Positions 11,359 through 16,200 are shown, counted from the stretch's first letter. The stretch: 64,000 nt of DNA from Myxococcus stipitatus DSM 14675 (GCF_000331735.1 NC_020126.1:620001-684000); one strand, 5' to 3'. Made by a program: numbers and translations. The notes: a model not told the origin generated them from the sequence alone.

Positions 11359-14300
11359 ATGAGGTGGGAAGCGATGGGCGAGTCGCCCGGCGAGGACAAT
11401 CGAGCAGGTCGGGCCGCGGGCCGAGCCTCGGGGCGTGAGTCCCTGTTGGCGGTGCTGGCGGAGAAGCCGTCCGTGGCGCGCGACATCGCGCGGGTGCTGG
11501 GCGCGCAGGAGCGGGGTGACGGCTACCTGCGGGGCAATGGCTACGTGGTGACGTGGGCCATCGGGCACCTGGTGGGGCTGGCGCAGCCTCACGAGATTCG
11601 AGCGGACTGGAAGAAGTGGAGCCGGTCGCTCCTGCCGATGCTGCCGGGGGACTGGCCGCTGGTGGTCTCCGACCAGACGCGCTCCCAGTTCGAGGTGGTG
11701 CGCCGTGTCTTGACCGCGCCGGAAGTGGGCGGCGTGGTGTGCGCGACGGATGCGGGCCGCGAGGGCGAGCTCATCTTCCGCTACATCTACGAGGCCGCGG
11801 GGTGCCGCAAGCCGGTGCGGCGGCTCTGGGTGTCGTCGCTCACGGAGCGCGCCATCCGCGACGGCTTCCGTCAGCTCAAGGAAGGGCGGGAGTACGACCC
11901 GCTGGCGGCGGCGGCCATGGGGCGCAGCCGGGCGGACTGGCTGGTGGGGATGAACCTGTCGCGCCTGTACACGCTGGCGCACGGCGGGCAGGGCGAGATG
12001 CTGAGCGTGGGGCGGGTGCAGACGCCCACGCTGGCCATGGTGGTGGAGCGGGAGTTGGCCATCCGGAGCTTCGTGCCTCGGGACTACCTGGAGGTCGTGG
12101 CCACCTTCGTGCCGCGGGGGCCTGGAGCTCCGGTGGGCGCGCGCTACACCGGGACGTGGTTCCGCTCCGGGCCGGATGGAAGGCCCGTGGTGCCTCCGGG
12201 GATGGAGGGCGTGCGCGAGGCGCGCAGGCTGGACGCGGATGGCGTGGAGGCGCAGGCCATCATCGACCGCGTCAAGCGCGGGCAGGCCACCATCGAGTCG
12301 CTGGACGCGGAGGAGAAGAAGCTCTCGCCGCCGCTGCTCTACGATTTGACGGAGCTCCAGCGCCACGCCAACCGGCTGTATGGCTTCAGCGCGCAGCGCA
12401 CGCTGGAGGTGGCGCAGGCGCTGTATGAGAAGCACAAGCTCTTGAGCTATCCGCGCACGTCCAGCCGGCACCTGTCCCAGACGGTGGCGGAGACGCTGCC
12501 GGAGGTGGTGGGCGCGGTGCGGGGGCCGTACGAGGAGGACCTGGCGCCGGGCACGGGGACGCGTCCCTTGGGCCGCCGCTATGTGGATGACGGGAAGGTG
12601 ACGGACCACCACGCCATCATCCCGACGCCGACCTCTCCCGAGGGACTGCGGCTGTCTCCGGACGAGCAGCGCGTCTATGACCTGGTGTGCCGGCGCCTGC
12701 TCCAGGCGTGGCACGAGGACCACGTGTGGCGCGTGACCACGGTGGTGACGGCGGTGATGTCTCCGGGGGCCCAGAGCGCGGTTCCGGTGGTGGACCGCTT
12801 CCAGAGCACGGGCACGCAGGTGGAGCGCGTGGGCTGGAAGGTGTTGGACATCGGGGGCGGGAAGAAGGCGCCCAAGCCGAAGGCGGAGGCTCGCAAGGGC
12901 GACGAGGACTCGGAGCCGGATGACGAGCCGCAGGCCCTGCCCGCGGGGCTGGAGCGCGGCCAGCCGCAGAAGGTGGAGGACGCGGAGGCGGTGAAGAAGC
13001 GCACGCGCCCGCCGCCGCGCTTCACGGACGCGTCGCTGCTGACGGCGATGGAGACGGCGGGGCGGGCGCTCGACGAGAAGGAGCTGGCGGAGGTCATGCG
13101 GGAGACGGGGCTGGGCACGCCCGCGACTCGCGCCGCCATCATCGAGGTGCTGCTGGACCGCGAGTACCTGGTCCGCAAGGGGAAGGTGCTGGAGGCGACG
13201 GAGAAGGGCCTGCACCTCATCCAGGTCGTTCACCCGGATGTGAAGACACCCGCGATGACGGGACAGTGGGAGGCCTGGCTCCAGCGCATCGAGCGCGGTG
13301 AGGGCCGGCTGGATGAGTTCATCCGGGGCATCGAGAAGTATGTGATTGAGGTGGTGGGTCACGTCCCCCCGGGCGCCGCTGCCGCCGCGCAGATGGGGGG
13401 CTTCAGGGCCCCTGTGCCTTCGCGCGAGGGCTTCGGGAGTGGTGGTGTCACCGCGCGCGGCGGCCATCAGGAGGGCGGGGGGGGCACGCGAGGGGTGGAC
13501 GCAACGGCGCCCCGTGGCGCGTTGGAGTCGCGCGAGCGTGGGGGGGCTGCGTTTCAGCCGGAGCCTCGCGCGCCGGAGCAGGGCGGGAGTGCCGGCGCCC
13601 GGCGTGAGCAAGGATTCACGAAGCCGGAGGCGTGGGGTGGGCGTGCGGAGGGCAATCCTCCTGGGGGTTGGAGCCCGCCGGGGACGGCTCCCACGGAGAC
13701 GGGTGGAGGCCGGTGGCAGGAGCCTCCGTCCTTCGCGGTCGCGAGTGGGGGTGCGACTGCCCGCCGCTCGGCGAGCGCGGCGTTCTCGGATGCCGCGATG
13801 GTGACGACGCCGCGCCGGACCTCGCCCCAGGGCTCCCTGTTGACCTCGGGGACCTCCTCGCGGAATCGAGTCGTCTCCGCGCCACCGCCAGGACAGCGGC
13901 CCGAGCGGGTGGACCGCGCGCCCACGCCACCGGACCAGCTTCGCCCCCTGCTGAAGGAGACCTTCGGGTTCTCCGATTTCAGGCCCTATCAGGAAGCGGT
14001 CTGCCGCGCGGCCACCGCGGGCGAGGACTTGCTGCTCGTGATGCCCACGGGCGCGGGCAAGTCACTGTGCTACCAGCTCCCGGGGCTGGCTCGAGCGGGG
14101 ACGACCATCGTCGTCAGCCCGCTCATCGCGCTGATGGAAGACCAGGTGCTGCGGCTCCAGTCGCTGGGCTTCGCGGCGGACCGCATCCACTCGGGACGCG
14201 ACCGGGCCACCTCGCGACAGGTGTGCTTCGACTATCTGGATGGACGGCTCGACTTCTTGTTCATCGCGCCGGAGCGGCTCGGGGTGCCGGGCTTCGTGGA

Positions 14301-16200
14301 GTTGCTCGCGCGTCGCCCGCCCACGCTCATCGCCATCGATGAGGCGCACTGCATCTCGCAGTGGGGACATGACTTCCGTCCCGATTACCGCCTGCTCGGC
14401 GCGCGGCTGCCGCTGTTGCGGCCGGCCCCGGTGGTGGCGCTCACCGCCACGGCCACGCCCGACGTGCAGCGCGACATCGTCCAGCAGCTCGGCCTGCTGG
14501 GCCCGGGGGGACGTGCCCGCACCTTCATCCACGGCTTCCGCCGCACCAACATCGGCATCGAGGTGCGGGAGCTCAACCCCGGCGCGCGCGGCGACGCCAT
14601 CCAAGGGTTGCTCCAGGACGAGGAGAACCGTCCCGCCATCGTCTACGCGGCCACTCGCAAGCACGCCGAGCAGCTCGCCGAGCAGCTCGCCGGAGAGTTC
14701 CCCGCAGCGGCGTACCACGCGGGGCTTCCTCCGGGAGACCGGGACAAGGTCCAGGCGGAGTTCCTGGGAGGCACGCTGGAGGTCATCGTCGCGACCACCG
14801 CGTTCGGCATGGGCATCGACAAGGCGGATGTCCGCACCGTCATCCACGCCGCGCTGCCCGCGAGCCTGGAGGGCTACTACCAGGAGCTGGGGCGTGCGGG
14901 CCGCGATGGGAAGCCATCCCGCGCGGTGCTGCTGCACTCGTACATCGACCGGCGCACGCACGAGTTCTTCCACAAGCGCGACTATCCCGAGGCCTACGTG
15001 CTGGAGCGACTGTTCCAGTCCACCAGCCCCGAGCCCGAGCCCAAGGACTCGCTCCAGGGGCGCGTGCGCACGGACCCGGAGGTGTTCGACAAGGCGCTGG
15101 AGCAGCTGTGGATTCACGGCGGCGTGGTGATGACGCCGGATGAGACGGTGCGGCGTGGACGCCCCGGGTGGGCGGCGGCGTACAACGCCCAGCGCGACCG
15201 CAAGCTGTTGCACCTGGAGCAGATGGGGCGCTACGCGGAGGCGCACGGCTGCCGGATGAAGCAGCTGGTGGCGCACTTCGGTGACACGCAGGACTCGGGT
15301 GAGGCGTGTGGCCTGTGCGACGTCTGCGCGCCGGAGGACTGCGCGACGCTGCGCTTCGCGGAGCCCACGGCGGCGGAGCGTCACTGGCTGGAGCGCATCC
15401 TGGAGTCGCTCCAGGAGCGGGATGGTCAGGCCACCGGGCGGCTGCATCGCGAGCTGTTCGGTGATGCGCTGCCTCGCCGTGACTTCGAGCGGCTCGTGGG
15501 AGGGCTGGTGCGCGCGGGGCTGGCCCGGCTGGACGTCGACTCGTTCGACAAGGATGGGCAGGTCATCTCCTTCCAGCGGCTGTCCCTGACGGATGAGGGG
15601 CGGCGGACGCGGGCGGTGGACCCTCGGCAGGTGGTCTTGCCGCTCCCGTTGGAGAAGGCGTCCAAGCGCAAGCGGGGCAAGAGCAGCAAGGCCACGGGTA
15701 AGCGAGCGAGCAGGACCCGCTCCAGCGCCGGAGCGTCGGCGTCCGAGGGGGCTCGGCAGTGGCGCGCCTCGTCTCCTTCGTCGGATGTCGAGTCGCGCTC
15801 CTCCTGGAATGCCTCGCGGACGGGGGCCTCCGAGGGTGGTGGGGCACGGACGGGGCGCTTCCAGGCCGCGGCTCCGTCCCGGGGGCGCTCGGTGGAGGAG
15901 GACTCCGAGGAAGAGGTCGAGACGCGGGGCTCTCGCTCCCGGGGCCGTGGTGGGGCGAGGGATGTCGAGTCCACGCCCGCGCCTCCGGGGTTGGTCGATG
16001 CGCTGAAGGCCTGGCGGCTCGCGGAGGCGCGCAAGCGCAAGGTGCCCGCGTTCCGCATCCTCACGGACCGGGTGCTGGGGGCCATCGCCGCCGCGCGTCC
16101 GGAGAACGGCGCCGCGCTGATGGCCGTCCACGGGGTGGGGCCCGCCCTGACCGAGCGCTACGGCTCCCAGATTCTCTCCCTCATCGCCCGGAAGCGCTGA
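11359..16200 (+). CDS. Topoisomerase III - RecQ helicase fusion with C-terminal HRDC-like domain
   Basis: A 1,613-residue single chain. Residues about 28-665 form a type IA topoisomerase III: toprim start [17 protein letters not shown], acidic DAGREGE (Asp131) and active Tyr364 in SYPRTSS, which would make the DNA-protein link. Residues 670-860 are a low-complexity Gly/Arg/Pro linker. Residues 865-1430 form a RecQ helicase: Walker A MPTGAGKS (Lys901), DEAH (Asp994), [11 protein letters not shown], the [10 protein letters not shown] motif VI and a four-Cys zinc cluster (Cys1298, 1317, 1320, 1323). After a second Ser/Arg linker, residues about 1543-1613 look like HRDC ([13 protein letters not shown]). 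Elsewhere Top3 and RecQ/Sgs1/BLM are separate partners that dissolve double Holliday junctions. No frameshift or internal stop was seen. ATG 11359 follows GGGAGGGA; ATG 11374 is possible. Confidence 0.92.

Follow-up and report, generated by a model that had tools for sequence, protein, structure and literature searches.

A continuous topoisomerase III–RecQ helicase reading frame in Myxococcus stipitatus and its relatives in three bacterial phyla

In yeast and human cells, topoisomerase III (Topo III) and its RecQ helicase are separate proteins which must meet to untangle recombined DNA. A single reading frame of Myxococcus stipitatus DSM 14675 appeared to encode both, raising the question of whether the two enzymes are truly joined in one chain and, if so, what this chain would do. 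The locus bears directly on a disputed question, namely whether Topo III and RecQ pair up in bacteria. In Escherichia coli, RecQ stimulates strand passage by Topo III in vitro (PMC4125114; PMC7140829), no physical contact between the two proteins was found and genetics gives a shared role in recombination no support (PMC7140829), and genetic work from 2026 pairs Topo III with RecG (PMC13244152). No description of a Topo III–RecQ fusion was found in the open-access papers searched. Within that literature only, the fusion is apparently undescribed; protein domain databases probably show the architecture already. The component enzymes are of known kinds and the novelty lies in the single-chain arrangement.

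The window, which is the whole stretch of 64,000 nucleotides analysed (NC_020126.1:620001-684000), belongs to a 10.35 Mb genome present as a single contig. The plus-strand frame was uninterrupted from a GTG at position 11239 to the stop codon at 16198-16200, and translation from the ATG at 11359 gave 1613 aa. The ATG at 11374 is at least as likely a start, with a better spaced Shine-Dalgarno sequence: GAGGTG precedes it by approximately 8 nt and is shared by five close relatives. The following features were identified, in window coordinates.

11359-16200, plus strand: topB-recQ fusion gene, encoding 1613 aa, or 1608 aa with ATG 11374 as the start
11452-11838, plus strand: Toprim domain of topoisomerase III, with TDAGREGE (Pfam PF01751, 34.2 bits, cut-off 23.1)
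11893-13323, plus strand: type IA topoisomerase core (Pfam PF01131, 345.9 bits, over the cut-off)
12448-12450, plus strand: codon of the catalytic Tyr364, within SYPRTSS ([ST]YPRTxS in 50/50 fused proteins)
13366-13929, plus strand: low-complexity linker (between 7 and 334 aa long in relatives; dN/dS 0.34-0.57; indels preserve the frame)
13981-14469, plus strand: RecA1 domain of RecQ, with Walker A Lys901 (TGAGKS) and DEAH at residues 994-997 (Pfam PF00270, 85.8 bits; motifs in 50/50)
14596-14910, plus strand: RecA2 domain of RecQ (Pfam PF00271, 74.9 bits; motif kept in 50/50)
14977-15162, plus strand: winged-helix-like insert between RecA2 and the zinc module (from the alignment; predicted helix-helix-helix-strand-strand, pLDDT approximately 83-95)
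15184-15327, plus strand: zinc-binding domain of RecQ, with Cys1298, 1317, 1320 and 1323 (Pfam PF16124, 38.9 bits)
15370-15588, plus strand: predicted second winged helix, diverged, at the RQC position (secondary structure of the model)
15694-15969, plus strand: second disordered linker (pLDDT below 50; a region of 0-111 aa in relatives)
15988-16185, plus strand: HRDC domain (Pfam PF00570, 64.2 bits, cut-off 23.8)

The preliminary description had claimed one continuous frame joining a complete topoisomerase III to a complete RecQ. The Pfam and NCBIfam domains and the motifs agreed with it, and the landmarks it had placed (Tyr364, DAGREGE, Lys901, DEAH, the zinc cysteine cluster and a linker at 13370-13930) were exact, while what it called an HRDC-like end proved to be a true HRDC domain. 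Two details of this picture changed, the start codon, which may lie at ATG 11374, and the layout of the RecQ half, which departs from that of canonical E. coli RecQ.

In the first half, the Toprim and Topoisom_bac domains spanned residues 32-160 and 179-655 of the fused protein, respectively, with TDAGREGE at residues 130-137. This half exceeded the curated NCBIfam topB models TIGR01056 (560.7 vs. 515.75) and NF005829 (660.5 vs. 597), and its best PDB match was E. coli Topo III. By family it is a topoisomerase III, and it would be expected to perform strand passage. The stretch aligned to what we take to be the decatenation loop of E. coli Topo III was present and longer. A second Topoisom_bac protein of the genome (897 aa) scored far under the topB cut-off and is presumably topA-like, leaving the fused gene as the only topB. 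A genome of the same genus carries an additional solo Topo III (L140:4096-6261, minus strand) belonging to a distant clade (32% identity), near the solo enzymes of L246 and L247.

In the second half, the DEAD, Helicase_C, RecQ_Zn_bind and HRDC domains spanned residues 875-1037, 1080-1184, 1276-1323 and 1544-1609, respectively, all over their Pfam cut-offs. The score was above the NCBIfam RecQ family model recQ_fam (TIGR00614, 373.7 vs. 219.8) and below the equivalog models for RecQ of the E. coli/B. subtilis type (TIGR01389, 458.3 vs. 640.2; NF008279, 355 vs. 1015). Pfam RQC had no match in this half; the predicted second winged helix occupies its position, and solved RecQ cores align through the stretch. 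The first winged helix is an insert of approximately 65 residues which E. coli-type RecQ lacks, according to the alignment and the model. By these comparisons the fused RecQ is a distinct RecQ subfamily. The extra winged helix (window 14977-15162) was common to the fused RecQs and to solo RecQs of Acidobacteriota. The AlphaFold model of the RecQ half (pLDDT 84.5, pTM 0.74), when compared with solved RecQ cores, matched D. radiodurans RecQ with a Z score of 42.3 over 476 residues.

It had been suggested that a fused form would fix a 1:1 ratio of the two enzymes. This stands for Topo III, and fails for RecQ because a further RecQ (710 aa) is encoded on its own elsewhere in the genome, making two RecQ-family proteins over the cut-off. 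In seven sampled genomes (G216, G232, G387, G273, G204, G071 and G514) the fused RecQ was the sole RecQ match.

The distribution of the fusion was examined in 195 Myxococcota genomes with a topB match threshold of 1e-90. A match was obtained in 92 of them, and for 79 of these the open frame around it measured 1216 aa or more; the shorter frames were mostly contig-end cuts or solo Topo III of other clades. In G025, where the contig breaks off within the repeats of the linker, only the RecQ half is visible. Fusions were present in 6 of the 33 topB-bearing Acidobacteriota genomes sampled and in 3 of the 13 Bdellovibrionota. They were absent from 27 Planctomycetota and 2 Gemmatimonadota genomes with topB, where no topB frame exceeded 1112 aa. 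The phylum labels of the sampled genome groups were deduced from the loci used as centres, and an independent contig scan also placed fused loci, among the matches listed, in Myxococcota, Acidobacteriota and Bdellovibrionota. The fusion is retained through much of the Myxococcota and in parts of the Acidobacteriota and Bdellovibrionota. In all, 49 relatives carry the same architecture, and its range extends past the myxobacteria, the group named in the preliminary description.

All 50 aligned fused proteins keep TDAGREGE, [ST]YPRTxS, TG[AS]GKS, DEAHCIS[QH]W and GRAGRDG, and the zinc cysteines are kept in nearly all those whose sequence extends that far. In pairwise comparisons with four relatives, dN/dS was 0.07-0.21 for the topoisomerase, 0.02-0.10 for the RecA domains and 0.34-0.57 for the linker. 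Judged by motifs and substitution rates, both catalytic modules are complete and under strong purifying selection. A sequencing error or frameshift hidden in the linker, which had been named as one finding that would undo the fusion, was ruled out: no fully read relative had an interrupted frame, the linker indels were in-frame and dN/dS was low in both halves.

The neighbouring genes encode NAD epimerase-like, SHOCT, metallo-beta-lactamase-like and PLD/cardiolipin-synthase-like proteins and a matrixin-like protease, in an order syntenic within the genus, and an operon with repair genes was rejected. With up to two mismatches allowed, the window contained no match to the LexA box pattern of M. 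xanthus. None of 72,556 plasmid records covered 80% of the fused protein, plasmid topB genes being separate, and a plasmid or mobile origin was rejected; near the top of the viral library search only separate RecQ-like helicases were seen. In a Bacteroidales locus (L058:5992-12694), topB, recJ and recQ follow each other on one strand with overlapping recJ and recQ, and a similar layout is suggested for L059.

The trees of the two halves were then compared. In the topoisomerase tree, all fusions grouped with two truncated forms in one clade (support 100/99), recovered in 100% of the bootstrap trees. The RecQ halves also formed one clade (84/95), with a single secondary solo RecQ inside (L047:1867-3993), encoded by an incomplete genome which yielded no topB. 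A tree shutting this protein out of the clade was rejected (AU test, p 0.004), and one release of RecQ from the fusion is therefore likely, unless the topoisomerase half falls in a gap of the genome. Among the matches listed, the closest outside RecQs were solo Acidobacteriota enzymes, with 62-69% identity. In the topoisomerase tree as well as in the RecQ tree, Acidobacteriota loci L213 and L216 grouped with Myxococcota loci L218 and L219, a pattern indicating that the fused gene was transferred whole. Taken together, the trees point to a single old fusion event, later passed on as a unit. That the two enzymes have repeatedly been retained in a single chain across three phyla, following what seems to be one fusion event, counts as strong independent evidence that they work as partners, and argues that in the fusion-bearing phyla the partnership of RecQ and Topo III is real.

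What would the partnership accomplish? The coupling of the pair that had been proposed from the two complete enzymes in one polypeptide is still the best reading. We consider it probable that the protein is a one-chain Topo III–RecQ enzyme, a counterpart of Sgs1-Top3 and BLM-TOP3A, which would dissolve joint molecules; the conserved fusion suggests that both halves act jointly on one DNA. In this model, the RecQ half, a 3'-5' translocase with its zinc module, winged helices and HRDC, would open or migrate branched DNA and expose single strands, the substrates being double Holliday junctions, D-loops and converging forks. The Topo III half, held nearby by a flexible leash, would cut one strand via Tyr364, pass the other and reseal, and the linked duplexes would separate without crossover. 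Selection would keep the tethering, the length of the linker being unimportant. The stimulation of Topo III by RecQ in E. coli, the genomes whose sole RecQ match is the fused one and the near-universal HRDC favour the coupled model. Against it speak the missing contact and the RecG genetics in E. coli, three relatives with a degenerate helicase (see below) and the nature of the helicase, which seems to belong to a RecQ subfamily without canonical RQC and falls below the RecQ equivalog cut-offs.

The main rival to joint-molecule dissolution is fork-associated decatenation. The fusion might serve mainly replication: where forks converge or stall, RecQ would generate single-stranded DNA and Topo III would remove precatenanes, recombination intermediates being a minor substrate. 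E. coli Topo III does act at the fork, and its recombination role with RecQ is not well supported there (PMC7140829). In vitro, the resolution of converging forks by RecQ and Topo III has also been reported (Suski and Marians 2008, cited in PMC13244152). Nearly all fusions, on the other hand, keep HRDC, and we regard a mainly replicative function as rather unlikely, though worth serious consideration. HRDC was found in every fused protein with a complete C-terminus except one. The exception, a 1216-aa protein (L219:6861-10508), is the only complete fusion seen without this domain.

The linker bears on the next two alternatives. Nothing in its sequence was constant among the 50 aligned fused proteins, and its length ranged from 7 to 334 aa. 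This absence of any constant sequence over such a range of lengths clearly indicates that tethering, not spacing, is conserved, and that tether length is not critical. After the catalytic core, where the solo Topo III enzymes of these surveys bear C-terminal zinc/repeat modules, the fusion has the linker and RecQ. In the predicted structure of a 1199-aa piece of a short-linker relative, containing both enzymes, each half folded well, the first matching E. coli Topo III and the second C. sakazakii RecQ; the pTM was 0.45, and therefore no docking is predicted. The expectation that a fused form may show how the pair is arranged was thus weakened, as neither the variable linker nor this model indicates a fixed arrangement; the short-linker members are nevertheless good structure targets. 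In L264:6736-9687 (minus strand), the linker consists of successive near-repeats (GARRTESLSFSDSSA-like), within which the contig ends, and linkers may grow by repeat expansion.

A disordered linker of unconstrained sequence is also what would be expected if the fusion were only a co-expression device, the halves working independently or being cleaved apart after translation, and the presence of the second RecQ in the genome is in keeping with this. An operon would suffice for co-expression alone, and yet the fusion persists across three phyla with one clear release of a solo RecQ in the tree. A Shine-Dalgarno sequence and start within the linker were found in only 9 of the 50 fused genes, mostly at the end of the topoisomerase domain and near RecQ in just two, and an internal translation start for the RecQ half was not supported. 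We consider a mere co-expression device improbable. Even less probable is a reverse-gyrase-like enzyme, in which the helicase would drive an ATP-dependent change of linking number. The same two catalytic kinds, a helicase and a type IA topoisomerase, do share one chain, but the domain order is reversed, with the topoisomerase N-terminal and the helicase C-terminal. The score for the reverse gyrase model TIGR01054 is far from its cut-off (95.4 vs. 471.7 bits), and membership of this family was rejected. The long and variable linker without predicted fixed docking also speaks against it, and E. coli RecQ and Topo III yield no positive supercoiling (PMC4200833). Finally, an assembly or sequencing artefact joining two genes can be practically dismissed, because the identical architecture occurs at 49 other loci, several of them in single-contig genomes, and the flanks are syntenic within the genus.

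In some lineages the helicase part of the fusion has decayed. In two Acidobacteriota loci (L240:7528-10221 and L241:7928-10552), Topo III is fused to a remnant of RecA1 in which DEAH has become EEAE, and RecA2 is gone. The remnant showed a dN/dS of 0.14 compared to 0.07 for the topoisomerase part, corresponding to purifying selection, and each of the two genomes has, in addition, an unfused intact RecQ from the sister clade. The Myxococcota locus L236:245-3619 (minus strand) encodes Topo III with a whole RecQ-like tail in which Walker A and DEAH have been lost and the winged-helix and zinc part is kept; this pseudo-helicase fusion sits on a very long branch. The motifs indicate a probable loss of ATPase activity in all three. 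As these loci keep the fusion with a degenerate helicase, ATP-driven unwinding would not always be needed, which suggests that the helicase part can assist the topoisomerase independently of ATP hydrolysis as well. Such lineages offer an insight into what the topoisomerase needs from the helicase besides ATP hydrolysis.

We tentatively extend the dissolution model to a genuine bacterial dissolvasome in one chain. RecQ unwinding and strand passage by Topo III would be coupled in cis on intermediates of recombination and of late replication, and in some lineages the helicase would now be selected as a non-ATPase accessory domain; this fuller version has somewhat less than an even chance. If it is true, the Topo III–RecQ partnership doubted in E. 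coli would be real in other bacteria. The enzyme is a natural one-chain form in which some linkers have about 20 residues or less, so that coupling is testable via the tether.

Compared with the E. coli enzymes, the halves belong to the same families as TopB and RecQ, and among solved structures they come closest to E. coli Topo III and to bacterial RecQ cores, respectively. The E. coli genes are separate, whereas the fusion is one chain in which the linker and a RecQ with an extra winged helix stand after the Topo III core. Reverse gyrase resembles the fusion in combining an SF2 helicase with a type IA topoisomerase in a single chain. Its helicase comes first and its topoisomerase second, opposite to the fusion, whose hosts are mesophilic; its helicase-like domain has a latch, whereas the RecQ of the fusion is complete, including the zinc module and HRDC. 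The Sgs1-Top3-Rmi1 and BLM-TOP3A-RMI complexes are made of the same enzyme pair, with HRDC on the helicase, and the same DNA substrates would be expected. Both assemblies are non-covalent, Top3 and Rmi1 binding the disordered N-terminus of Sgs1 in yeast (PMC3905885). These dissolvasomes include RMI proteins, whereas in the fusion the link is covalent and the topoisomerase stands ahead of the helicase.
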